Assembly (NCBI RefSeq): GCF_030655415.1
Contig: NZ_JAURVN010000014.1
Location: 62,001-126,000 of the forward strand
DNA: 64,000 bases
Reading direction: 5' to 3'
Source of the DNA: Herminiimonas sp.
GTDB taxonomy: Bacteria; Pseudomonadota; Gammaproteobacteria; Burkholderiales; Burkholderiaceae
The position numbers were made by a program, and so were the translations under genes. Under the pieces are notes generated by a model. That model ran no database searches and was not told where the DNA came from. It saw nothing but the letters and a program-made list of their open reading frames with translations. Below, piece by piece: positions 606-27,667 of the stretch. Position 1 is the first letter of the stretch. Each line of letters begins with the position of its first letter.

Positions 606-3600
606 TTACTGGAAATCGCGGCTGCTGATAGTGAGTTCACCCAGCAAGTGGGAATGATCGACAATCCGTTTCGCAACTAGATGGTGAACGCCTTCCTTGG
701 TTTGCCAGATACCGTAGACTGTCATCAGTTGCGCATTCAATATTTCCTTGCGCTGCTTGTCCACCAAGTCTGGCCAGATAATGACGTTGGTGATGCCGGT
801 TTCATCTTCAAGCGTGACAAACATTGTGCCTTTGGCAGTCGGCGGTCGTTGCCGCATCGTGACGATGCCGGTAGTGCGTGCAATTTTTCGATCGGCAAAT
901 CCGCGCATTTCCAGTGAAGTCGATAGGTTCATTTTTTTGAGTCGCGGCCGCAGCAATGCGAGTGGATGACGGTTCAGGGTTAATCCAAGGCTGGCGTAAT
1001 CAGCGACGATTTCCTGGCCTTCGCTGGCTTGCGGCAAGATTAATGGCGTTTCTATAATCGGTGCATCGCGCAATAAAGCCGGCGCTGGCCGCATCCCGGC
1101 TACTTCCCATTTTGCTTGGCGTCTATGACCACTTAAAGGTAGTAGCGCATTGGCGCTGGCTAGGGCGCCGAGTTCATGCTGATCCAATGAAGCACGACGC
1201 GCGAGATCATCGACGTTGGCAAAAGCTTGCTGCTCACGCGCTGCGACTATTCTTTCTGCTGCGGCTATGGATAAGCCTTTCACCATTTTCAGGCCGAGCC
1301 GCACTGGCGATTGGACAAGCTTCATTTCTTCCAGATGGGATTCGATGTCGCTGATTGTGATGTTGACAGCATGCACGATGACGCCGTGACGCTTGGCGTC
1401 TTGCACCAATTGCGAAGCGGAATAAAAACCCATCGGTTGCGAGTTGAGCAGTGCGACAAGAAAGGCGGCTGGGTAGTGACATTTGATCCAGGCCGATACA
1501 TAGACCAGCAAGGCAAAGCTGGCGGCATGGGATTCGGGGAAACCATATTCGCCGAAGCCTTTGATTTGTTCGAACAGCCTGTCTGCAAAATCTGGGTCGT
1601 AGTCGTTGGCGATAAGGCCGGCTTTTAGTTTGTCGCCATGCTTTTCGAGGCTCCCTTTACGCTTCCACGCGGCCATCGATCGACGTAGTTCATCTGCTTC
1701 GCCTGGGGTGAAATCTGCTGCCAGCACGGCGATTTGCATCACTTGTTCTTGAAAGATCGGCACGCCGCAAGTGCGCTTTAAGGCTTCCTTGATTGCCGGG
1801 CCTGGATAGACGATGTCGTCCGGATTCATATGGCGTTGCTTCAGGTACGGATGCACCATGCCCCCTTGAATCGGACCGGGCCGCACAATCGCCACCTGTA
1901 CCACCAAGTCGTAATAGCGCTGTGGACGCAGGCGCGGCAGCATCGACATTTGCGCACGCGATTCGATCTGGAATACGCCTATGGTGTCTGCCAGACAAAT
2001 CATCTCGTAGGTTTTCTTGTCCTCGTCTTTAATATCCTGCATCTCGAAGCGATAGCCTTTTTGAGCGCTGATCATATCCAGCGCACGTCGGATCGCTGAC
2101 AGCATGCCCAGCGCCAGCACATCGACTTTCAGCAAGCCGAGCGCATCCAGATCATCCTTGTCCCATTCGATCACGCTGCGATCCTTCATGGATGCGTTTT
2201 CTATCGGTACCAGTCTGGCCAGACTATCCTGCGCAATGACGAAGCCTCCGCTGTGTTGCGACAAATGACGTGGAAAACCGATCAGGGTTTGAGTCAGTTC
2301 CACCAGTTTTTGCACGATAGACGATTGCGGGTCGAAGCCGTTTTCAAGCAAACGATCTTCGCGAACTTCGCGGCCATCCCACCATTTGTGCGAGCTGGAC
2401 AAACGATTGACCTGTTCAAAGTCCAGGCCTAGCGCTTTGCCGACATCTTTCATTGCCGAGCGCGGCCTATAGGTGATCAGCGCAGCGGTCAGGGCGGCGC
2501 GGTGGCGGCCGTATTTTTGATAAATGTATTGCATCACTTCTTCGCGCCGCTGATGCTCGAAGTCGACGTCGATATCCGGCGGTTCGTTGCGCTCGCGTGA
2601 GATGAAGCGCTCAAATAATACGCTGCTGCGTTGTGGATCGACTTCGGTAATGCCCAGGCAATAACAAACAATCGAATTGGCAGCCGAGCCGCGCCCCTGG
2701 CAAAGAATGTCGCGGCTGCGGGCGAATTTGACGATGTCGTAGACGGTGAGGAAGAAGGGTTCGTAATTCAGTTCGTGTATCAGGCTTAACTCATGTTCGA
2801 TTTGCTGGCGAAACTTTTCAGGAATGCCGTTCTTGAAGCGTCTTTGTGTTGCGCCTTCAAAGGTGATGCGGCGCAAATAACCAGATAGCGTTTCGCCGGC
2901 GGGAACGATTTCTTGCGGATATTCGTAGCGCAATTCATCCAGTGAAAAAAAGCAAAGGCTGGCGAGCTTGATGGTTTCTTCCAGCAATTGCGACGGATAA
3001 ATCTGCGCCAGACGCAGGCGTGAGCGTAAATGCTGTTCGGCATTTGGCTGCAACTCCAGCCCGCATTCCGCGACCGATTTCCCCAGACGTACTGCGGTTA
3101 GTGTGTCTTGCAAGGGTTTGCGCGAGCGCACATGCATCAGGACGTCGCCCATTGCGATTAATGGCACGTTCACTTTGGTGGATAGGGCGCTGAGTTGATC
3201 GAGCCAGTATTGATCATCGCAGTGATGCAGTAATTCGACCGCGATCCATGCACGGGTAGGGAAGGTGCGTGCCAGCCAAGTGCTTTGCTCTTCGATTTCT
3301 TGCTGTGTGTGCTCGTGTTGCGGGATCAGGATGACGCAACAATCCGGCAAATAAGCCAAATGTGCGGCGCTGCTTTCTGGCGGAACTTGTTCATCCAGAT
3401 CACTGCGACACAAGGTGTAAAAACCTTTGGCGGCGCGTCGCCGACCTAGCGTGATTAACTCGGACAGATTGCCGTAGCCATTGCGATTACAGGCGAGAAA
3501 AACCAGTTTGGTGCCGCAGACCAGCGTGATTTCGCTGCCTATGATCAGGTGCAGATCATGTTTTTTTGCTTCGACATGGGCGCGTACGACGCCAGCTAGC

Positions 3601-15300: not shown

Positions 15301-18300
15301 TTGAAAAAGGTGGGGTGGCACTTGACTACTAATACCCTTCAACAAAAAATCCTGCAGTACTTCCCGTTCCTTTCCGCCTCTGGAAATGAAGAGGATTTCC
15401 CTGATGAGCCACCACGCGTTGAAATCTTCAGCGCAGAAAAACTCGAATCCCACGCCGCCCATCTGGCTGCAATTCAAAAAATAGGTCAGGCACCACGCCG
15501 CACCTCGATTTCTGCGATGGCGCGCGATGATGGTCGCGCCTTGGTCGCAGCGCATGCAGCGATAGAACGCGCCGCTGGCGAACGACGCGCGATTACGTCA
15601 GCGGCAGAATGGTTGCTCGATAACCTGCATGTGGTGCAAGAGAACGTCTCCGGCGTGGTTGAAAATATGCCGCGCCGTTTATACAAGTCATTGCCGAAAT
15701 TGCAGAACGGCGATTACGCCGGCATGCCGCGCATCTACGGTTTGTGCTGGGAATTTGCCGCGCATACCGACAATCATTTCGATACCGATTTGTTCCTGCG
15801 TTTTGTCCGCGCGTATCAAAGCTTACAAGCGCTGACGATGGCCGAATTATGGTCTTTGCCGGTCGTGATGCGCGCAGTACTGCTTGTCCATTTGCGTCGC
15901 GTCGCGATGCGCGTGGTCAGGGCGCAGGCCGCGCGGCAAGCAGCGGATGATTTGGCTAATGATTTGATCGCGATTGCGCAAAAAACACCAGAGAAAGAAC
16001 AGCCAGGGATTGTTCTGCCACCAGGACATTTGCGTCAGCCTTTTGCCGTGCAATTGGTGCAAAGGCTGCGTTATCAACAGCCAGGTTTTACACCATTACT
16101 GGATGCGCTTGCTGCCCGTTTAGCGGATCAGAATCTGACTATCGATGATTTGGTGTTGCGCGAACATACGACGCAAGTTGCATCGAATCAAACCATACGC
16201 AACATCATTACCAGCATGCGCGGTATTGCGGCTTTCGACTGGCGTGCGTTTTTTGAATCGGTTAGTTTGGTCGAACAAAAACTGCAAGCGCTGCCGACCT
16301 ATGCGGTACTGGATTTTTTGACGCGCGATCGCTATCGCAAAATCATTCAGCAAATCGCATTGAATGCGCGCTATTCGGAGCAACAGATAGCCGATGCATT
16401 GGTGCGCAAGATTGAATTCCATCGTAGCCAGATGCAGCATGACGATATTGTCGCCGACGAACGTGCGCTGGACCCGGGGCATTATTTGCTGGCTGGTGGC
16501 CGCAATGATCTGGAAGCCGAGCTGGGTTATCAGCCCCATCTTGCGCAAAAGCTGAAACGTCATTACATCGCTCACGCCAGCTTGTACTACCCAATCACGA
16601 TCTTGCTGGTCGCGTTCACTTTACTGGCGTTGCCGCTGTTAAGCACGCGTGACAATGGCGTGCCGGATATTGCATTGGCTTTGTTGATCGCAGCTGGATT
16701 TTTCCCTGCATCTGATATTGCGATTACGGTGGTTAACAAGGTATTGATGCGCCTGTTCTGGCCGCGCCATTTGCCGCGACTTGAGCTGGAAGATATTTCT
16801 GAAAGCTTGCGTACCTTTGTCGCAGTGCCGGTGATGTTGACCAGCGAAGAGGGTATCGAAGAAGAAGTGCGCCAACTGGAGGCGCATTACCTCGCGAATC
16901 CGGATGGTGAGGTCTACTTCACGTTATTGTCGGACTGGGCCGATGCGCAGCAAGAGCACATGCCGCAGGATTTGTATTTCCTGGAAAAAGCGCGCACAGA
17001 CATCGCCGAATTGAATGCGCGTTATGGCCCTAGCATCAGCGGCCAAACGCGGTTTTACATCCTACACAGAAAACGCTTGTGGAACGCCGCAGAAAATCGT
17101 TGGATGGGCTGGGAACGCAAGCGTGGCAAGCTGCATGAATTCAATCGTCTGCTGCGCGATGCGCACGACACTTCGTTTTTGCTCGACGATATTCCACTAC
17201 CGCGCAACGTCCGTTACGTGATCACGCTGGATGCCGATACGCGTATGCCGATTGGTGCTTTGCGCGCACTAGTGGGTGTTGCCGCACATCCGCTAAATCA
17301 ACCGCGTCACGATCCAGAAACCGGACGCGTGATTGAAGGTTACGGCATTCTGCAACCACGCATCACACCGACTTTGCCGATGCAGCAAGAGCGCACTTTA
17401 TATCGTCGCTTTTTCTCGGCGCGCGGCGGCATTGATCCTTACGGCGGTGCGGTCGCCGATGTCTATCAAGACGTGTTTGGCTGGGGCAGTTATTCTGGCA
17501 AGGGCTTGTATGACATCGACGCATTTGAACATGCGCTGGCTGGCAAAGTGCCGGAAAACACGATGCTCAGCCATGATCTGTTCGAAGGTGCAATTGCACG
17601 TGTGGCCTTGGTCAATGACGTCGAATTGTTCGAAGATTTCCCATCCCATGTAGAAGAAGCTGCTGCTCGCCAGCATCGCTGGACGCGTGGTGATTGGCAA
17701 TTGCTGCCGTGGTTATTGAATGGTGGCCGTGCCTCGATCTCGACGATAGATCGATTGAAAATTGTCGATAACATGCGCCGCTCTTTAATGGCACCCGCGA
17801 TTTTGACTGTACTGGTAACAGCGTTCTGTATGGAGTTTTCACCAAGCTGGCCGTGGCTGGCATTGGCCATTGTTGGTCTGGCCGCGCCATCGGTATTTCA
17901 GTTTGTATCTGATCTATTGCCGCATCGCGATGACTTGTCATTCAAGGCGCACTGGCGACGTGGTCTGGCCGTGTTGCCAGACACAATCGCGGTGGTATTC
18001 ATTTCGCTGGCAGTGCTGGCACAACATGCATGGCTGATGCTGGATGCGATATTCCGCACCTTGGTGCGCCTGATGTTTACGCGTAAAAAGTTGCTGCAAT
18101 GGGTCACATCAGCGCAAGTAAGAAAATCCAAACAATATTCGCTCTCGAATTTTGCATGGCGCGGGCGCATGGGCGTATTGCTCGCGTTCGTCATCGCCGG
18201 GATTGTGTATCTGACCAATCCTGAAAAATGGACGATGGTGCTGCCTTTCTGTTTGTTGTGGGTATTGGCGCCGGTGATAGCGCGCTGGATCAGTCTGCCA

Positions 18301-21300
18301 CCTGTCGACACGAACGTGGAGTTACTGGAAGCGGATGAAGAAACAGAATTGCGTCTGATTGCACGCCGCACTTGGCGTTTCTTCACGACGTTTGTGGTCG
18401 CGCAAGATCACTATTTGCCGCCAGACAATTTCCAGGAAACGCCGCATCCTGTCATCGCGCATCGAACTTCACCCACCAACTTCGGCTTGTATCTGCTGTC
18501 CGTTTCGACCGCGCGTGATTTTGGCTGGATAGGTTTGGGCGAAATGATGCAGCGGCTGGAAGACACCATGGAGTCGCTGCACAAGCTGCCGCGTTATCAC
18601 GGTCATTTCTTCAATTGGTATGAGACAGAACGACTGGAAGTTTTGCTGCCGCGTTATATCTCGACCGTCGATAGCGGCAATCTTGCCGGTCATCTGTTCG
18701 TGTTGGCGCAGGCCTGTAAGGACGCACGCGAACAAAACGTTTTGCGTTCAGGTGTTGCAGCCGGTATGCGCGATACGGTTTTGTTATTGCGTTTTGCGAT
18801 TGAAGGCGTCAGCCGCGAGTTGCGTACACAGACGGTGAGCATCGTCGAGTTACGCAAGAACGCTGAACAATTCAGCGATCTGTTGCTGGCTAATAGCAAT
18901 GCTTTGTCTACCTATGAAGTTTGGCAAAAACTGGTTGAACGCGCAGAAAACATGGTGGATCTGGCGCAGGCATTTTCTGCTGAAATTCAAAGTGCTGAAA
19001 ATGAAGTACTGGCATGGGCCAAGGAATTGTGTGAAGCGGTACGCACGCATTGCGCAGATTTTGTCGCGGTCGTGCCTTGGGCGCATCTGGAGGCTGGTGA
19101 TCGCGAACAAAAACGCAATGCCGAACTATGGCAACTGATCAATGCGCAAATCACTGCCGATCTTGCGCTGGAAGATTTGCCTGAGCGTTATTCATCCGCC
19201 CGCAATGAAGTCGGTCGTTTGTTCTCATCGCAAAACCGGCTTGATCCTGATGTGATGTCGCAAGAGCTGTTCAACGAGCTGGACGCGATCTTGAATCAGG
19301 CGACATTGCTGTCGACCAAATGGCTGTGGCGTTTGGAAACGCTGGAAAACGCAGCGCGCCAAATGGCGACGGAAATGGATTTCCGTTTCTTGATGTCGCC
19401 TGAGCGCAAGTTGTTCTCCATCGGTTACAACGCTGACGAAGGACGACTCGACGATAGTTACTACGATTTGCTGGCATCCGAAGCGCGACTCGCCAGCATG
19501 GTGACGATTGCCGAAAGACAGGTGCCGCCTTCGCATTGGTTCCGTCTTGGTCGCCGCATGTTGCCGGGATTGGAATGTCCGGTACTGGCTTCATGGTCCG
19601 GTTCGATGTTTGAATACCTGATGCCGTCCCTAGTGATGTCATCGCCGCGCGGCAGCATGCTGGATCAAACCTGTCGCGGCATTATTCAAAGACAGATCGA
19701 ATACGGCAAAGAACGCAAAGTGCCGTGGGGCGTATCCGAATCGGCGATGAATGTACGTGATCGCGCTTTCACCTATCAATATTCTGCATTCGGTGTGCCG
19801 GGGCTGGGACTTAAACGCGGACTGGAAAAAGATATCGTCATCGCGCCATACGCCACCGGTTTGGCGGCGATGTACATGCCGAAAAGTGCAGTTGAAAATT
19901 TCCGCCGTTTGGCGACCATGGGTGCGGTCGGGCGTTACGGCTTTTACGAAGCGCTGGACTTCACTCCAGGTCGTCGTGCAGAGAATCAGACCATGGCGAT
20001 CGTCTACGCGTACATGGCGCATCATCAGGGCATGTTGCTGGTATCGCTGGGCAACGTCATCAATAAAAATGTGATGCGTCATCGCTTCCACCGCGAACCG
20101 ATTATTCGTTCCGCTGAATTGCTCTTGCACGAATCGCAGCCACGCTGGATACAACCGGCTTCGTTGGCGTTGCGCGAAGAGTTGGAACATCCATCCGTGG
20201 TCGAACCGGAGTCTGGTGTCGCGCGTCATTTTGACAGTGCGATGACGGCGATGCCGGAAACGCAATTGCTATCCAACGGCCATTACGCCGTGATGCTGAC
20301 GGCGGCTGGTTCCGGCTACAGCTTGTGGAATAAATTGGCTGTCACGCGTTGGCGTGAAGATGCGACCCGCGATCAATGGGGTAGCCATCTTTATCTGCGC
20401 GATTCGGACAGCGGCAAGTTTTGGTCCGCCTGTTATCAACCGACTGCGGTCGAGCCGGATTCTTATCAAGTCAAATTTGCCGAAGATCGCGCGCGTATCT
20501 CGCGTGTGGACGGCACGATTTCCAGCATGCTGGAAGTGATCGTCTCGCCTGAAGATGATGCCGAGCTGCGTCGTTTGACGTTGACCAATAACGGTCCGCG
20601 TGCACGCACGATAGAAGTCACTTCGTATATGGAAGTGCTGTTGGCGCCGGTCGCAGCCGACGTTGCGCATCCGGCTTTCTCGAATCTGTTTGTAGAAACC
20701 GAATACCTGCATGAAGTACGCGGCTTGCTGGCTTCGCGCAGACCGCGCAAGGATGGCGAAACACGTCCTTGGGCCGCACATGTAGTCGCACGTGGCGAAG
20801 GCAGTAGCGCAATCGGGATTGAGTATGAAACCGATAGAGCGCGCTTCATAGGACGCGGTCAAGGCATCAACAAACCGCGTTCGATCATTGATGGTCGTCC
20901 ATTGTCGAATACGGTGGGCGCTGTGCTGGATCCGATTTTTAGCCTGCGTGTGCGGGTGCGCATCGAGCCGGGCGAAGTCTCGCATCTGGTATTCACCACG
21001 ATGGCGGCGAACTCGCGTGAAGAAATCATCAGCCTCGCTGATAAATATCACGACGGTTCAACCTTCGCGCGCATTTCCGCATTGGTGTGGACGCATGCGC
21101 AAGTGCAGTTGCACTACCTGCGGATCGAACATTACGAAGCAGAATTGTTCCAGCATCTGGCGAGTCGGATTTTGTTCTCCGATGCATCGTCGCGCGCCAG
21201 CCGTCGTGTGATTCGTTCGATGTCCTTGAGCCATGCTGGTTTGTGGGGCCAAGGTATTTCTGGCGACCGGCCAATACTTTTGCTGCGTATGGCCAAGCAG

Positions 21301-24114
21301 GAAGACTTGCGTCTGGTATCGCAATTATTGCGTGCACAAGAATACTGGCGCATGAAGCAATTGCCGGTTGATCTTGTCATCCTGAATGAAAAAGGCGCGT
21401 CTTACGCGCAAGAGTTGCAGGTCTCGATGGAAAGCATGGTGCGCGCGGCGCAAGCATTCTCTGCGCAGCAAGAACAGGCTGAACGTGGTGGCGCTTACAT
21501 CGTGCGCGCTGATCTGATTACAGATGACGAACGTACCTTGTTGCTTTCTGCTGCGCGCGCAGTACTTGAAGGCGGGCAGGGTAGTTTGGCTGAGCAGATG
21601 CAGCCGCGTCCTGACAGCGATGTTGATGCGCCGTTCTCGTGGTTGGAGCGTGATGTGCGTGCACCGCAAGGCGCGCCGGCCGGACCGGCGCCGCAACTGG
21701 CGCTGTTCAATGGCCTGGGCGGTTTCGATCAGAGCGGACGCGAGTATGTGATCGTGTTGGGTCAGGATCAGAACACGCCGGCGCCGTGGATCAATGTGAT
21801 TGCGAATCCGGTTTTCGGCTTTACCGTTTCTGAACGTGGTGCAGGTTATACGTGGAGTTTGAACAGCCGCGAAAACAAACTGACGCCATGGTCCAACGAT
21901 CCGGTCTCCGATCCATCCGGCGAATCCTTCTATATACGCGATGAAGACAATGGTGCTTTGTGGAGTCCAACCATGTCGCCGATACGCGTGCCGAACGCAA
22001 CGTACACCACGCGACATGGCCAGGGTTACAGTCGTTTTGAATTGACCTGCAGCGGCATCAGTAGCGAGTTGCTGCAGTTTGTCAGTTGGGATGATCCGGT
22101 CAAGATTTGCCGCTTGCGTTTGAAAAATGTCTCACGCAATCCGCGTCGCTTGTCTTTGACGTCTTACGTTGAATGGGTATTGGGCGCAGCGCGTACCAAT
22201 AACGTGCCTTTCATCGTGACGGAACGTGATGCAGAAAGTGGTGCGCTGTTCGCACGCAATTCGTGGAATATCGAATTCGGCCAACGCGTTGCATTTGTCG
22301 ATTTGTGCGGCAGTCAAACTGCATGGACTGGTGATCGCAAGGAATTCATAGGCCGTAACGGCAATATGCAAAAACCAGCGGGTCTGATCCTCGGCCATAG
22401 TTTGTCGAATCGCGTCGGTGCCGGTTTCGATCCATGTAGCGCGATGCAAACTCTGGTTGAAATTGCGCCAGGTGCAGAAACCGATATCGTGTTTTTGATG
22501 GGGCAGGCAGAGTCCACTGAAGCAGCGCGTGAACTGGTGCAGCGTTATCGTGCGGCTGATATCGATGAAGTGTTCGCGACCAGCCAGCGTAACTGGAGCG
22601 AGATCCTGCATACGGTACAGGTGGAAACGCCTGATCGTTCCATGGATTATTTACTCAACGGCTGGCTCTTGTATCAAACACTGAGTTGCCGATTCTGGGC
22701 GCGCACTGCGTTTTATCAGGCTGGTGGTGCGTATGGTTTCCGTGATCAATTGCAGGATACGCAAGCCTTGGCGCTGGTTGCGCCCAAGCTTGCACGCGAT
22801 CAAATCTTGCGCGCGTCGTCACGTCAATTCCCAGAAGGCGATGTTCAACATTGGTGGCATCCGCCTAGTGGACGCGGCGTGCGTACGCATATTTCTGATG
22901 ATTTGATTTGGCTGCCATATTGCGCGGCGCATTATGCTGAAGTGACAGGCGACGCGCAGATTTATGACGAGATGATTCCTTTCCTCGAAGGCGATTTACT
23001 CCCGCTGGAGAAAGAAGATAATTATTTCGAAGCGAAAATCTCTGATGAAAAAGCCACTGTCTACGAACATTGCGCGCGTGCGTTGGATCACAGCATGCGC
23101 GTAGGTCCGCATGGTTTGCCGCTGATGGGTGGCGGCGACTGGAACGATGGCATGAATCGCGTCGGTCACGAAGGCAAGGGCGAAAGCGTGTGGCTCGCGT
23201 GGTTCCTGTATGCGACCTTGCTGCGTTTTGCACCTGTAGCAGAAGCGCGTGGCGATCAGGTTCGCGTCACGCGTTGGCTGCAACATGCAGAGAAACTCAA
23301 AGCCGCAACCGAGAAACATGCATGGGATGGCGCATGGTATCGCCGCGCGTATTTCGACGATGGCACGCCACTCGGTTCAGCCAGCAATGCCGAATGTCGT
23401 ATCGATTCGATTGCACAAAGTTGGTCGGTGATTTCCGGCGCGGGCGAAACCGGACGCTCACAACGCGCAATGGAATCGGTCGATCAATATCTGATTCGTC
23501 CAGGTGATGATTTGATTTTGCTGTTCACGCCACCATTCGATAAAACGCCACTTGATCCCGGTTACATCAAAGGTTATTTACCAGGCGTACGCGAAAACGG
23601 CGGTCAGTACACGCATGCAGCAGTGTGGTGTCTGATTGCGTATTCGATGATGGGCAAGGGCGGTCAGGCGCACGATTTGTTCAAGATGATCAACCCTGCC
23701 AATCGCACCAGCACACGTACCGGCATGGCCGCATACAAGGTCGAACCGTATGCAGTCGCTGCCGATATTTATGCCGAGTCACCGCACGTACGACGCGGTG
23801 GCTGGACTTGGTACACCGGTGCTGCTGGCTGGTTATATCGAGCCGGTGTTGAATTCATGCTCGGCTTGCAAGTCAAGGCAGACAAACTCAGCCTCGATCC
23901 ATGCTTGCCGCCAGAATGGCGCAATGCCAAGTTGCATTATCGTTACGGTCGTTCGATGTATCACATCAACGTCGTCAATCCGGATGGCGTCAGCAAAGGC
24001 GTGGTGCGGGTAGAGCTGGATGGCGTTGCGGTGGCCGACAAAGTAGTGGGCATGTTCGACGATGGCGCGTCGCATACCGTGACGGTTGTGATGGGACTTG
24101 ATCAGTTGGCGTAA
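15301..24114 (+). CDS. ndvB: Cyclic beta-1,2-glucan synthase (GT84-GH94)
   Basis: A 2937-residue inner-membrane enzyme that builds cyclic beta-1,2-glucan from UDP-glucose, exported to the periplasm for osmotic adaptation and host or surface interactions. The GT84 glycosyltransferase domain has the metal-binding DAD at residues 645-647 (ITLDADTRMP), then HDLFEGAIARVALV and QHRWTRGDWQLLPWL, the QxxRW-type motif. Membrane spans are seen near 430-490, 830-870, 887-910 and 956-998. The C-terminal half is a GH94 phosphorylase-like region that sets chain length, with the catalytic Asp in GGDWNDG (about 2611-2617) and paired glucan-binding repeats before it. The start is uncertain: TTG at 15301 is used, but a GTG at 15310 or a TTG at 15322 behind AGGTGGGG would also fit. 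It is a lone gene with a strong terminator. Confidence 0.93.
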   Translation: MKKVGWHLTTNTLQQKILQYFPFLSASGNEEDFPDEPPRVEIFSAEKLESHAAHLAAIQKIGQAPRRTSISAMARDDGRALVAAHAAIERAAGERRAITSAAEWLLDNLHVVQENVSGVVENMPRRLYKSLPKLQNGDYAGMPRIYGLCWEFAAHTDNHFDTDLFLRFVRAYQSLQALTMAELWSLPVVMRAVLLVHLRRVAMRVVRAQAARQAADDLANDLIAIAQKTPEKEQPGIVLPPGHLRQPFAVQLVQRLRYQQPGFTPLLDALAARLADQNLTIDDLVLREHTTQVASNQTIRNIITSMRGIAAFDWRAFFESVSLVEQKLQALPTYAVLDFLTRDRYRKIIQQIALNARYSEQQIADALVRKIEFHRSQMQHDDIVADERALDPGHYLLAGGRNDLEAELGYQPHLAQKLKRHYIAHASLYYPITILLVAFTLLALPLLSTRDNGVPDIALALLIAAGFFPASDIAITVVNKVLMRLFWPRHLPRLELEDISESLRTFVAVPVMLTSEEGIEEEVRQLEAHYLANPDGEVYFTLLSDWADAQQEHMPQDLYFLEKARTDIAELNARYGPSISGQTRFYILHRKRLWNAAENRWMGWERKRGKLHEFNRLLRDAHDTSFLLDDIPLPRNVRYVITLDADTRMPIGALRALVGVAAHPLNQPRHDPETGRVIEGYGILQPRITPTLPMQQERTLYRRFFSARGGIDPYGGAVADVYQDVFGWGSYSGKGLYDIDAFEHALAGKVPENTMLSHDLFEGAIARVALVNDVELFEDFPSHVEEAAARQHRWTRGDWQLLPWLLNGGRASISTIDRLKIVDNMRRSLMAPAILTVLVTAFCMEFSPSWPWLALAIVGLAAPSVFQFVSDLLPHRDDLSFKAHWRRGLAVLPDTIAVVFISLAVLAQHAWLMLDAIFRTLVRLMFTRKKLLQWVTSAQVRKSKQYSLSNFAWRGRMGVLLAFVIAGIVYLTNPEKWTMVLPFCLLWVLAPVIARWISLPPVDTNVELLEADEETELRLIARRTWRFFTTFVVAQDHYLPPDNFQETPHPVIAHRTSPTNFGLYLLSVSTARDFGWIGLGEMMQRLEDTMESLHKLPRYHGHFFNWYETERLEVLLPRYISTVDSGNLAGHLFVLAQACKDAREQNVLRSGVAAGMRDTVLLLRFAIEGVSRELRTQTVSIVELRKNAEQFSDLLLANSNALSTYEVWQKLVERAENMVDLAQAFSAEIQSAENEVLAWAKELCEAVRTHCADFVAVVPWAHLEAGDREQKRNAELWQLINAQITADLALEDLPERYSSARNEVGRLFSSQNRLDPDVMSQELFNELDAILNQATLLSTKWLWRLETLENAARQMATEMDFRFLMSPERKLFSIGYNADEGRLDDSYYDLLASEARLASMVTIAERQVPPSHWFRLGRRMLPGLECPVLASWSGSMFEYLMPSLVMSSPRGSMLDQTCRGIIQRQIEYGKERKVPWGVSESAMNVRDRAFTYQYSAFGVPGLGLKRGLEKDIVIAPYATGLAAMYMPKSAVENFRRLATMGAVGRYGFYEALDFTPGRRAENQTMAIVYAYMAHHQGMLLVSLGNVINKNVMRHRFHREPIIRSAELLLHESQPRWIQPASLALREELEHPSVVEPESGVARHFDSAMTAMPETQLLSNGHYAVMLTAAGSGYSLWNKLAVTRWREDATRDQWGSHLYLRDSDSGKFWSACYQPTAVEPDSYQVKFAEDRARISRVDGTISSMLEVIVSPEDDAELRRLTLTNNGPRARTIEVTSYMEVLLAPVAADVAHPAFSNLFVETEYLHEVRGLLASRRPRKDGETRPWAAHVVARGEGSSAIGIEYETDRARFIGRGQGINKPRSIIDGRPLSNTVGAVLDPIFSLRVRVRIEPGEVSHLVFTTMAANSREEIISLADKYHDGSTFARISALVWTHAQVQLHYLRIEHYEAELFQHLASRILFSDASSRASRRVIRSMSLSHAGLWGQGISGDRPILLLRMAKQEDLRLVSQLLRAQEYWRMKQLPVDLVILNEKGASYAQELQVSMESMVRAAQAFSAQQEQAERGGAYIVRADLITDDERTLLLSAARAVLEGGQGSLAEQMQPRPDSDVDAPFSWLERDVRAPQGAPAGPAPQLALFNGLGGFDQSGREYVIVLGQDQNTPAPWINVIANPVFGFTVSERGAGYTWSLNSRENKLTPWSNDPVSDPSGESFYIRDEDNGALWSPTMSPIRVPNATYTTRHGQGYSRFELTCSGISSELLQFVSWDDPVKICRLRLKNVSRNPRRLSLTSYVEWVLGAARTNNVPFIVTERDAESGALFARNSWNIEFGQRVAFVDLCGSQTAWTGDRKEFIGRNGNMQKPAGLILGHSLSNRVGAGFDPCSAMQTLVEIAPGAETDIVFLMGQAESTEAARELVQRYRAADIDEVFATSQRNWSEILHTVQVETPDRSMDYLLNGWLLYQTLSCRFWARTAFYQAGGAYGFRDQLQDTQALALVAPKLARDQILRASSRQFPEGDVQHWWHPPSGRGVRTHISDDLIWLPYCAAHYAEVTGDAQIYDEMIPFLEGDLLPLEKEDNYFEAKISDEKATVYEHCARALDHSMRVGPHGLPLMGGGDWNDGMNRVGHEGKGESVWLAWFLYATLLRFAPVAEARGDQVRVTRWLQHAEKLKAATEKHAWDGAWYRRAYFDDGTPLGSASNAECRIDSIAQSWSVISGAGETGRSQRAMESVDQYLIRPGDDLILLFTPPFDKTPLDPGYIKGYLPGVRENGGQYTHAAVWCLIAYSMMGKGGQAHDLFKMINPANRTSTRTGMAAYKVEPYAVAADIYAESPHVRRGGWTWYTGAAGWLYRAGVEFMLGLQVKADKLSLDPCLPPEWRNAKLHYRYGRSMYHINVVNPDGVSKGVVRVELDGVAVADKVVGMFDDGASHTVTVVMGLDQLA

Positions 24115-24176
24115 TGAACGGACGTAATCAATTGATGTAATGAGTTGAAAACAAGGCAACGTAAATTCGCTGTCTG

Positions 24177-24220
24177 CGCTACAGCTGGTGATCCCAGCTG
24201 TAGCGTTTTCTTTTGTTTTA
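24177..24220 (+). terminator. Intrinsic terminator of the glucan synthase gene
   Basis: Perfect 12-bp stem CGCTACAGCTGG / CCAGCTGTAGCG with a 5-nt loop, followed by TTTTCTTTTGTTTT. It lies 63 bp after the stop codon at 24114. Confidence 0.93.
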
Positions 24221-24525
24221 CGTATTTATATTTAAGTACATATTCAAAAAATCTTCAGCGGCGATAAGTCTGCCGCGTCAAATCGGTAACAGCTAATACG
24301 ACGGCCTGTTGCCAACTATGCTCCTCAAGATTGCCATATTGATATGAATGAAAAAAGCACCGCGCCGTCTGTAGCGCTGCATTCGCCAATATGGGCTGCG
24401 CCCAAAAATAGCGCAGCTTGTCAAAAATCGGTTAAATTTGATCCAACAAGAACAAATAAAAACATAACAACAGCGTCTCTGAGTTCCACTGCGTGGAGCC
24501 AAGAGCATTGATTGGAGACAAGTCG
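24221..24525. other. Intergenic region, nothing assigned
   Basis: About 305 bp between the glucan synthase terminator and the next plus-strand gene. It is AT-rich at the left, with no gene, repeat or hairpin that I can support. The promoter of the following gene is presumably here. Confidence 0.45.
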
Positions 24526-25002
24526 ATGATTTATTCCAAGACGGAATTGGGCCAAACAGCGTTTCAGAATCGTTCTGTTGCGCTCACTCCACGGCAGCGT
24601 TCCGCATTCATCATGTTTGACGGCAAGCGCAGTACTGAAGAGGTGCTCAAGGCGACTGCCGGGCTGAATGTCACGGCGGATGATGTGAATCATATGGTGA
24701 CGCTGGGTCTTCTGGTGGCTGCCGCTATTCCTGTTGAGGTAGCACAGCAAGCACCTGAGCCTCAGCCCCCAGCTGTGTCGGCCGATGCAAGTGGGCCCAC
24801 CCAAAGCGATCAAGCGCATTATTTAAACGCCTACCGGATTGCCACGCGCTTGACCGCCAACTTGGGTCTGCGCGGCTTTGGAGTCAACCTGGCGGTGGAA
24901 GCTGCCGGTAACTTGGCCCAACTGCAGCAGCTCGCACCAAAAATCAAGAATGCCGTTGGTCCGGAGAAGTACAAGGAGCTTGAAAGCGCGCTGTACGACT
25001 GA
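24526..25002 (+). CDS. Small two-part protein, unknown (winged-helix-like N-terminus)
   Basis: 158 residues. The first 65 residues (LTPRQRSAFIMFDGKRSTEEVLKATAGLNVTADDVNHMVTLGLL) look like a small winged-helix or three-helix module in which a short repression-like loop ends in GLL. A proline/alanine linker (VEVAQQAPEPQPPAVSADASGP) leads to a helical C-terminal part (HYLNAYRIATRLTANLGLRGFGVNLAVEAAGNLAQLQQLAPKI). I do not recognise a named family. The ATG at 24526 has GGAG about ten bases upstream. It precedes the PRMT-like gene by 229 bp, which is too far to assume an operon. Confidence 0.7.
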   Translation: MIYSKTELGQTAFQNRSVALTPRQRSAFIMFDGKRSTEEVLKATAGLNVTADDVNHMVTLGLLVAAAIPVEVAQQAPEPQPPAVSADASGPTQSDQAHYLNAYRIATRLTANLGLRGFGVNLAVEAAGNLAQLQQLAPKIKNAVGPEKYKELESALYD

Positions 25003-25087
25003 GACATAAGGGCGCGCATGCCAACATTGTGTCGCGCCGTTTACGCAATTCATCTTAGTGCTTGAAATTGTATTTAAGTGCTGAGCT

Positions 25088-25111
25088 CAAAAAAATTCCC
25101 AACAAGGGAAT
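25088..25111 (-). terminator. Terminator-like hairpin on the minus strand with no annotated gene upstream
   Basis: On the minus strand ATTCCC-TTGTT-GGGAAT is followed directly by a run of T (TTTTTTTGAG), the form of an intrinsic terminator. The genes on both sides are on the plus strand, so it would end an unannotated minus-strand transcript starting within 25112-25231. The 6-bp stem is short. Confidence 0.4.
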
Positions 25112-25231
25112 AGCTAGGTAAAACCTCCATACATCTCCCCTTTGCTTTGTCGTGACGCTCACCATAATGATGCTTCACGTACCTGTTCCTGCGGGAACCG
25201 TACGCAAACGACAAACCACGAGGATGACACC

Positions 25232-26152
25232 ATGCTGACTGAACGCGAACTTGAAAGCTCCTATCTGGGCCAATTCATCCCTGTGCATTACCACCACAAT
25301 ATGTTGATGGACCAGAACCGGATGTCGGGTTTCAAGGCGGCGATCAATCATCTGGTTGCACCTGGCGCCAAAGTGTTGGAGCTGGGCGGCGGCACGGGCG
25401 TCTTGTCATGGTTTGCCGCAGCCAAAGCAGAAAAAGTTTGGTGCGTTGAATACAATCCGGATCTGGTCAGAGAAGCGCGCAACTTCTTGTCCAAGAACGT
25501 CAATGGACACAAGGTCGAAGTGGTCGAAGCGGATGCTTTTGACTATCTGCCGCCTGAGCCTGTTGATGTCGTCATCTGCGAAATGATCCACGTCGCGATG
25601 GTGCGCGAGAAGCAAGTACAAGTCATCGAAGCATTCAAACAGCGCTATCTGGAAAAATTCGGCGGACCGTTGCCACTCTTTATTCCTGAAGCGATGATCA
25701 TGGCCGTCCAGCCTTTGCAGCAGGACTATTCGTTTGAAGGCTATAACGCGCCTATCGTGCAATTCCGCGAAGCGACTTTCGAGCAAGCCGGCAGCATCGA
25801 TCTGGCTGCACCAGCTGTGTATTCCTTATTGGATTTTACGCAGCCAGTCGGCACCGATATCGCATGGCAAGGTTCGTTTGTGATTGAACGCGATGGCATC
25901 GTTAATTCATTGCGCTTCGTGACCAAGAATATTCTTGCTGTTGTGATGGAAACAAACAGCACGATCGACTGGTTGAATCACTATATGACGCTGCCTTTGG
26001 CAGATCCGATCATAGTGCAGGCCGGTGATGCGTTATGCGTTAGTTTTGCATATCGCGCGGGTGGCTCCATTCAATCGCTGCAAGCGTCAATACGGGCTGG
26101 TGATGCATCGATCTTTGCGGTCGAAGAGTATACGGAAAGTGTTGCTGCCTGA
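25232..26152 (+). CDS. Protein arginine methyltransferase-like (PRMT-fold) SAM methyltransferase
   Basis: 306 residues. The N-terminal Rossmann half has the PRMT-type entry HHNMLMDQNRMSGFKAAI (about 21-38). SAM motif I is VLELGGGTG (48-56), and the acidic ribose-binding end is CVEYN with Glu73. The next loop, ICEMIHVAMVRE, places Glu117 and Glu126 nine residues apart, the spacing of the PRMT double-E loop. The C-terminal half is a beta-barrel-like domain, and TIDWLNHYMTLPLADPIIVQAGD (245-267) aligns by eye with the PRMT THW segment, His being replaced by Asp. PRMTs methylate protein arginines and are mainly eukaryotic. The substrate here is unknown and activity is only inferred. The start follows AGGA. 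A strong terminator follows the gene. Confidence 0.78.
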   Translation: MLTERELESSYLGQFIPVHYHHNMLMDQNRMSGFKAAINHLVAPGAKVLELGGGTGVLSWFAAAKAEKVWCVEYNPDLVREARNFLSKNVNGHKVEVVEADAFDYLPPEPVDVVICEMIHVAMVREKQVQVIEAFKQRYLEKFGGPLPLFIPEAMIMAVQPLQQDYSFEGYNAPIVQFREATFEQAGSIDLAAPAVYSLLDFTQPVGTDIAWQGSFVIERDGIVNSLRFVTKNILAVVMETNSTIDWLNHYMTLPLADPIIVQAGDALCVSFAYRAGGSIQSLQASIRAGDASIFAVEEYTESVAA

Positions 26153-26174
26153 TTATGGACTACAGCAGCTGAAT

Positions 26175-26207
26175 AAAAAATGGCGAGCCTGAAAGCTCGC
26201 CATTTTT
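26175..26207. terminator. Bidirectional intrinsic terminator
   Basis: AAAATGGCGAGC / GCTCGCCATTTTT stem with loop CTGAAA. It has A-rich and T-rich flanks on both sides, so it can serve both the PRMT-like gene (plus) and the DUF2970 gene (minus), which converge here. Confidence 0.92.
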
Positions 26208-26223
26208 ATTTGGATCAATAAAT

Positions 26224-26436
26224 TTACCTCAAGACTAGCGAGACCACAGTCAGCAGCACAGCGATGAAAATCGCCACGCCCAGCAGCGCCGCAATAATGA
26301 CGTACACAGGATTGAGCCCGGTCACATCTTTTTCATAATCGGAACGACGGCGCAGGCCGACGAAAGACCAGAACACCGCGCCCAGCGTCGCTAGAAAAGA
26401 AGTCTTTTCGGTTTGTTTCTTGATCGGCTCTGTCAT
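26224..26436 (-). CDS. DUF2970 small membrane protein
   Basis: 70 residues. It shows the DUF2970 pattern: SFLATLGAVFWSFVGLRRRSDYEKDVTGLNPVYVIIAALL, a short charged linker flanked by an N-terminal hydrophobic helix and one C-terminal transmembrane span (VYVIIAALLGVAIFIAVLLTVVSLVL). The function is unknown; the family is common in beta- and gammaproteobacteria. Two adjacent ATGs are possible (26439 and 26436). AAGGG is six bases before the second, which I use. It lies 163 bp downstream of hisC on the same strand. Confidence 0.82.
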   Translation of the reverse strand: MTEPIKKQTEKTSFLATLGAVFWSFVGLRRRSDYEKDVTGLNPVYVIIAALLGVAIFIAVLLTVVSLVLR

Positions 26437-26599
26437 CATTTTCCCTTGAAGGTTAATCTGGACTGCCAGCCTCGAATGCATAGCGCAGCTTCAATCTCAA
26501 ACGCAGCTTGCCTGATTAACAGAATACCGATTCCTGATTGCCGTTGGCAGCATCAGATGCGTTTGTATTTTTCGTATCAGATGCTGTTGTCGCTAGCGT

Positions 26600-27667
26600 T
26601 TAATGCTTCGACGTCAACAGCGTCAGCGTCTGGATCAGCATCTTGCACTCATCCGGATTGCCAATACTGATGCGCAGATACTGATTAATGCGCTCGTGCT
26701 TGAAGTGACGCACGATGATCGCACGTTCGCGCAAACCTGCGGCCAATTGCTCAGCAGCATACGACTCGTGACGCGCAAAGATAAAGTTCGCAGCAGAAGG
26801 CAGCACAGCGAAACCAAGTTTTTCCAGTGCAGCAGTCATCTGTTCGCGACTATCGATAATTGCCGCATTGGTTTTCTGGAAATAGGCTTCATCACTATAA
26901 CTGGCGACCGCGCCAGCCAATGCCAATCTATCCATAGGATAAGAGTTGAAACTGTTCTTCACGCGTTCCAGCGCTTCGATCAATTTCGCATGGCCCATCG
27001 CAAAACCGACACGCAAGCCTGCCAGTGAACGTGATTTCGAGAAGGTACGAATCACCAGCAGATTCGGATATTTATGGATCAAGGGAATCGCTGTTTCGCC
27101 GCCAAAATCTACATAAGCTTCATCGACCACGACGACAGCGTTCGGTTGCTTGGTTAGCAGTGCTTCAATCGCAGCCAACGGAAGAGGAATGCCGGTCGGT
27201 GCATTCGGGTTCGGAAAAATAATTCCGCCGCATGCGCGATTTTCATAATCGGCAGTGTTGATTCCCATAGAGTTGTTCAGCGGTACTTCGACGTAATCGA
27301 TGCCGAACAACTTGCAATAGACAGGATAAAAACTGTAAGTGATATCCGGAAACAGCAAAGGCTCGGAATGCTTGAGCAGCGACATAAACGCAAACGCCAG
27401 CACTTCATCGGAACCGTTGCCAATGAAGATTTCATCCGTTTTTACGTCGTGATAGGCAGCTAAGGTCTTTTTCAGCTCGGACGCATCTGGGTCCGGATAC
27501 AGGCGCAAGGAATCTGCGCTAACCGCATGCATCGCAGCCGTCACGGCTGGCGACGGCGGATATGGATTTTCATTGGTGTTCAACTTGATCAAGCCCGGCA
27601 ATTTCGGTTGTTCACCCGGTACATAAGGAGTGAGTGTTTGCACAATAGGGCTCCAGAACTGGCTCAT
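26600..27667 (-). CDS. hisC: Histidinol-phosphate aminotransferase
   Basis: 355 residues, a PLP-dependent class I/II aminotransferase of histidine biosynthesis that converts imidazole-acetol phosphate and glutamate to L-histidinol phosphate. Visible features are the N-terminal [25 protein letters not shown], the FPNPNAPTG loop, DEAYVDF holding the PLP-ring Asp, and [16 protein letters not shown] with the Schiff-base lysine. The C-terminal [17 protein letters not shown] carries the substrate-phosphate arginines. AAGGAAAG precedes the ATG at 27667. No other his genes are nearby, so this may be a second, dispersed copy; close relatives can act on aromatic amino acids. Confidence 0.92.

Follow-up and report, generated by a model that had tools for sequence, protein, structure and literature searches.

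A PRMT-like gene with a predicted PRMT fold

The window analysed here is a stretch of 64,000 nucleotides from Herminiimonas sp. (contig NZ_JAURVN010000014.1, positions 62,001 to 126,000 of the forward strand), and the gene under study is an intact open reading frame (ORF) at 25232-26152 on its plus strand, which starts with ATG and encodes a 306-residue protein resembling the protein arginine methyltransferases (PRMTs), enzymes dependent on S-adenosylmethionine (SAM). The ORF tool also gave an earlier TTG at 25142 as an alternative start; the ATG is favoured because its column is the start in 29 of the 33 rows of an alignment that we call A1. Conservation was counted in a second alignment, A2, whose 74 rows comprise the window protein, 70 of 240 listed homologs and three loci. 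The features of the gene, each with its basis in brackets, are as follows.

25232..26152, plus strand: PRMT-like methyltransferase gene, 306 amino acids (ORF, homology, structure model, fold search)
25220..25223, plus strand: GAGG ribosome-binding site, 8 nt 5' of the ATG (read from the sequence)
25265..25282, plus strand: LGQFIP, residues 12-17, family motif replacing YFxxY (A2)
25292..25321, plus strand: HHNMLMDQNR, residues 21-30 (alignment to PRMTs; conservation in A2)
25373..25399, plus strand: SAM-binding motif I VLELGGGTG, residues 48-56 (PDB alignment, A1, A2)
25577..25615, plus strand: double-E loop CEMIHVAMVREKQ, residues 116-128 (A2; ungapped alignment to PRMT double-E loops)
25676..26101, plus strand: predicted C-terminal beta barrel, about residues 149-290 (model; structural alignment spanning 3-295)
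25724..25813, plus strand: segment at the site of the helical dimerisation arm of PRMTs, residues 165-194 (DSSP of two models)
25913..25930, plus strand: RFVTKN barrel strand, residues 228-233 (A2)
25964..25972, plus strand: IDW, residues 245-247, probable counterpart of the THW loop (A2; most, not all, alignments to HW)

Among the best 60 of 111 rows of a PDB search with the single sequence, 59 were arginine methyltransferases (best E 2.8e-12), including one named MGC151858 protein that another look-up gave as bovine PRMT9; the 60th row was PrmA (E 0.0019), with the weakest PRMT row close to it (E 0.00091). With a family profile as query, arginine methyltransferases, MGC151858 again among them, took all of the best 60 of 133 rows (E 1.2e-20 to 2.6e-10). 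Identity to the eukaryotic PRMTs is 16-22%. As for PrmA, the protein scored 23.8 bits against the NCBIfam prmA equivalog model, which requires 183.15, and narrowly passed the Pfam PrmA cutoff (24.1 vs 22) over residues 37-120 only.

The predicted structure consists of a Rossmann SAM domain followed by a C-terminal barrel, as in the PRMT superfamily, and the fold search matched the model to PRMTs; sequence profile, fold search and structure model thus back the original prediction of a PRMT-like fold with a double-E loop and a C-terminal barrel. The arm is another matter. In PRMTs an alpha-helical dimerisation arm, described in an excerpt of PMC8619983 as crucial for activity, projects where the barrel begins. 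By DSSP, the model of the window protein contains no helix of at least four residues within 143-280, and that of P0121 (41% identical to the window protein) none within 138-276; the segment q164-201 has equal length in 72 of the 74 family members. Both models therefore lack the arm, the family as a whole would appear to do so, and the protein may be monomeric or dimerise in a different manner.

Non-synonymous (dN) and synonymous (dS) divergence was 0.020 and 0.743 against Herminiimonas fonticola (L001; protein 96% identical, first 867 bases), 0.024 and 0.719 against L002, and 0.116 and 1.203 against L005. Strong purifying selection acts on the gene (dN/dS about 0.03). This ratio rules out a pseudogene, and the profile and fold evidence rules out a chance motif.

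Conserved motifs and an altered active site

All the sequence elements originally pointed out are present, namely HHNMLMDQNR at residues 21-30, LGGGTG at 51-56, Glu117 and Glu126 nine residues apart, and IDW at 245-247. Motif I conforms to the PRMT pattern VLD/VGxGxG, with G52, G54 and T55 each in 74 of 74 rows of A2. In the double-E loop E117, H120, E126 and Q128 are equally invariant (74/74 each), position 119 is L in 41, I in 31 and V in two rows, and both glutamates align without gaps with those of plant PRMT10 (3r0q). M24 (72/74), D27 and R30 (74/74) align with M48, D51 and R54 of PRMT1. Roles for M48 and R54 of PRMT1 are described in excerpts of PMC8619983 and PMC3748068. In the barrel strand RFVTKN, T231 is found in 74, R228 in 72, N233 in 71 and K232 in 68 rows.

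The PRMT-like label stands for the fold, but four elements differ from those of canonical PRMTs: the double-E loop, the THW loop, YFxxY and the dimerisation arm. An excerpt of PMC12925635 gives the double-E consensus as SExMGxxLxxExM and lists THWxQ and YFxxY as further PRMT motifs. CEMIHVAMVREKQ deviates from the canonical type I consensus in that the Gly is replaced by His (H120) and the last Met by Gln (Q128). The YFxxY site reads YLGQF in the window protein, where position 11 is variable (Y in 22 of 74 rows) and the family motif LGQFIP takes over (G13 and I16 in 74, P17 in 73, L12 in 70, Q14 in 67 and F15 in 61 rows). The motif III region, YLEKFGGPLPLFIP, is longer by an insert than the PRMT pattern LK/xxGxxxP.

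THW is likewise absent from the window protein. At its probable place the family reads (I/V)(D/E)W, with W247 in 74 rows, D246 in 62 and E in nine. D246-W247 aligns with HW in the MAFFT alignments and in the 3r0q stretch (family profile, 1.5 bits only), and in hhalign D246 matches the H in six of eight template sets, although for L100 alone only a local run is readable. With the set of L100, L101, L103 and L105, and with L103 alone, HW falls two positions later, and the same shift appears against PRMT3 in the family-profile PDB search. The proposal that DW stands where PRMTs have THW therefore holds in most alignments but not in these; D246 is the probable counterpart of the THW histidine, its exact equivalence depending on the alignment.

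His at position 120 occurs in none of 13 more distant relatives (L092, L100-L111) versus all 74 family members, whereas the Trp of the THW-like loop is preceded by His in nine of the 13 versus none of the 74. Since the sequences are related, this contrast may represent one event. Judged from these residues, H120 may have taken over some task of the THW histidine. According to an excerpt of PMC8619983, the PRMT1 variant H293S forms monomethylarginine and asymmetric dimethylarginine unaffected, so that loss of the THW histidine need not be fatal.

Distribution, neighbourhood and terminator

Among 4346 candidates, 2202 homologs were found at E <= 1e-3. The genome samples were centred on G001, the genome of L001: the gene is present in 54 of 145 genomes of its GTDB family (in one case in pieces on several contigs, in another truncated), full-length in eight of 200 genomes of the order sample, plus one distant match, and matched in 22 of 398 genomes of the phylum sample (nine full-length members, L099 and 12 distant proteins). 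Apart from G586, each genome had one match at the thresholds used. Arginine methylation was originally called rare in bacteria; the gene is not rare within its group, and its presence in both Herminiimonas genomes searched, together with the family sample, rules out a gene peculiar to this genome. Source names include Leeia, Nitrosomonas and Gallionellaceae, and those of metagenome-assembled genomes, whose labels may be wrong, Alphaproteobacteria, Nitrospirales, Pirellulaceae, Thermoguttaceae, Chloroflexota and Firmicutes. Several relatives are named protein arginine N-methyltransferase 1 or type I protein arginine methyltransferase in their sources, and the PRMT idea is thus already present in databases; the titles and abstract openings among the literature matches listed do not describe the family. 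A tree of 33 rows of bacterial sequences separated the family and L099 from 13 others with branch support of 100/100 and a long-branch warning from the program. L099 itself (1426-2352, minus strand) is a possible pseudoenzyme in which both catalytic glutamates are gone.

The gene stands alone in the window. Upstream, a 2937-residue protein with GH94 supersandwich, GH94 catalytic and glucoamylase domains is encoded at 15301-24114 on the plus strand; we take it to be cyclic beta-glucan synthase-like. A strong terminator-like hairpin (24176-24206, plus strand; 13 pairs, T-rich tail) directly follows this gene. Between it and the methyltransferase lies an ORF of 169 residues (24493-25002, plus strand), which matches nothing in Pfam or NCBIfam at E 1 and whose stretch has similar DNA in L005 (80% over 654 bases), not in L001-L004. 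Downstream, a convergent DUF2970 gene (26224-26481, minus strand) is followed by a gene taken as hisC by eye. One further feature lies between the convergent genes.

26176..26207, no strand assigned: bidirectional terminator hairpin of the PRMT-like and DUF2970 genes (folding energy -19.9 kcal/mol, 13 pairs, A and T tracts on both sides)

The gene had been credited with a terminator of its own; because this 13-bp stem stands between two convergent genes, it is a shared one. It was found by folding and is not among the sites of the terminator scan, probably since the stem includes the T-run. Rfam gave no match at E 0.1 within 23900-26700, and of four promoter sites scanned within 24100-26500 (2.4 expected) none lies on the plus strand before the gene.

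Upstream of the gene, 72 of the best 80 loci (out of 262) have an ankyrin-repeat gene in the same orientation (within 386 bp, from the tblastn match end, in 60 of these), 73 a tatD-like gene and 71 a holB-like gene. The ankyrin gene is absent from all five Herminiimonas loci and from L008, L009 and L057. Its product has a signal-peptide-like start (by eye, from L010, 5144-5818, plus strand, and like loci), and an ankyrin-like ORF was also seen by eye near the gene in L097. An exported ankyrin protein is not an obvious partner for a cytosolic enzyme. Among loci outside this group, ORFs and clusters read by eye revealed no neighbour common to lineages; the three related loci L093, L094 and L096 (fragment) have a Lysine_decarbox-type gene in common. 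No substrate was obtained from gene context.

Nor did a gene fusion provide a usable lead to the substrate. In L086 (1501-3876, minus strand) an ORF of 791 residues begins with a 490-residue domain, to which a methyltransferase of the family is fused. By eye the domain resembled a pyridoxal phosphate-dependent enzyme, a notion left unsupported by one sub-cutoff Pfam match and no PDB match at E 1. It occurs in 20 of the 145 genomes of G001's family, nine of which also carry the methyltransferase against 7.4 by chance, and there is thus no clear link between the two; the two genes of G594, about 3 kb apart on one contig, count against the absence of a link.

Proposed function and comparison with known systems

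With moderate confidence we place the protein, as a cytosolic methyltransferase dependent on SAM, in the PRMT superfamily, within a bacterial family whose active site is altered and whose arm is missing; its target would be a guanidino nitrogen, most likely of protein arginine. SAM would be bound by the Rossmann domain and the guanidinium group held by E117 and E126, and the methyl group would pass from SAM to the guanidino nitrogen in an SN2 reaction. E117 would serve as proton acceptor by analogy with PRMT1 E144, proposed for that role in an excerpt of PMC3748068.

Several observations weigh against this assignment. The Pfam PRMT5 model stays below its cutoff in the window protein (E 0.11), while generic models, as well as RrnaAD, PrmA and PCMT, exceed theirs over the SAM domain. 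The barrel model PRMT_C finds no match at E 1 in the window protein and is missing from the best 25 of 40 families for A2 (E 0.1), yet it matches five of six more distant bacterial PRMT-like proteins (E 0.01), passing its cutoff in L092, L101, L103 and L105, falling just below it in L100 and having no match in L104. The pocket is altered by the changes of MG to (L/I/V)H and of M155 to Q. Post-I reads VWCVE, with Cys for the Gly/Ala of the consensus V/I-X-G/A-X-D/E (excerpt of PMC12925635); its third position is C in 59, A in nine, S in five and T in one of the 74 rows, and E73 is kept in 73. L099 (35% identical) has lost both glutamates but keeps H120 and DW, and the arm called crucial for PRMT activity (excerpt of PMC8619983) is missing in both models. 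Finally, A2 was assembled from the nearest matches, which favours invariance.

Conservation of the gene, its single copy and, where examined, its position outside biosynthetic clusters make protein arginine the favoured substrate. The main rival is that an enzyme of PRMT fold methylates a small guanidino compound, whether free arginine, agmatine or some metabolite, like SznE, which reportedly acts on free arginine. This seems unlikely to us: the context of the gene is unlike that of a biosynthetic cluster, the Massilia-type loci lying beside holB, tatD and the ankyrin gene and the Herminiimonas loci beside the glucan-synthase-type gene and hisC (hisC, holB and tatD named by eye). Absence of the arm in the models and the conserved basic barrel-strand residues R228 and K232 would nevertheless fit a small substrate that carries an acidic end, and an excerpt of PMC12637814 calls SznE the arginine methyltransferase of the streptozotocin cluster. 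H120 and Q128, both differing from the PRMT consensus, could also point to a PRMT-derived enzyme that keeps the fold but methylates another nucleophile (histidine, lysine, a carboxylate or an RNA base), and some source names read predicted RNA methylase; with both guanidinium-binding glutamates invariant and those names looking like automatic labels, we find this distinctly improbable. An inactive relative with a structural or regulatory role, as the loss of the THW-like-loop histidine and the arm and the state of L099 might suggest, is highly improbable given dN/dS and the retention of the motif I glycines, E73, E117, E126 and R30 in 73-74 of 74 rows.

Beyond the enzymatic assignment to protein arginine, a wider proposal is rather doubtful: that arm-less arginine methyltransferases with a rewired pocket, in which H120 replaces the THW histidine, are widespread in bacteria and act on an endogenous protein, forming a native arginine-methylation system of the Betaproteobacteria. 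Arginine methylation in bacteria may take a form of its own, and the family would offer a handle on whether ordinary environmental bacteria do so in their own proteins. PRMTs have been studied mostly in eukaryotes, where the arm is held crucial for activity (excerpt of PMC8619983); a compact arm-less relative with both glutamates would test the need for the arm and the pocket residues that set the product.

Compared with the eukaryotic PRMTs (PRMT1, 2, 3, 6 and CARM1), the family lacks YFxxY and the helical arm, has L/I/V-H for MG, Q for M155 and (I/V)(D/E)W for THW, and carries an FGGPLPxFIPEA stretch after the helix. The distant bacterial PRMT-like proteins of Pseudomonadota (L100-L111) resemble it in both double-E glutamates (11 of 12, the second being P in L107) and in hhalign, where eight sets or single sequences taken from them gave probabilities of 98.4-100. 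Position 120, His throughout the family, is not His in any of these 12; nine have HW, and together with L092 they are parted from the family and L099 by the 100/100 branch that carried long-branch warnings. Three further bacterial cases are likened by description only, from source excerpts. The Legionella PRMTs and Rv1988 are bacterial arginine methyltransferases in a review (PMC10117894), which gives the former as of unknown function; SznE is also a bacterial arginine methyltransferase, from a natural-product cluster (PMC12637814); and Rv1988, unlike the presumably cytosolic present family, is secreted and targets host histone H3R42 (PMC10117894).
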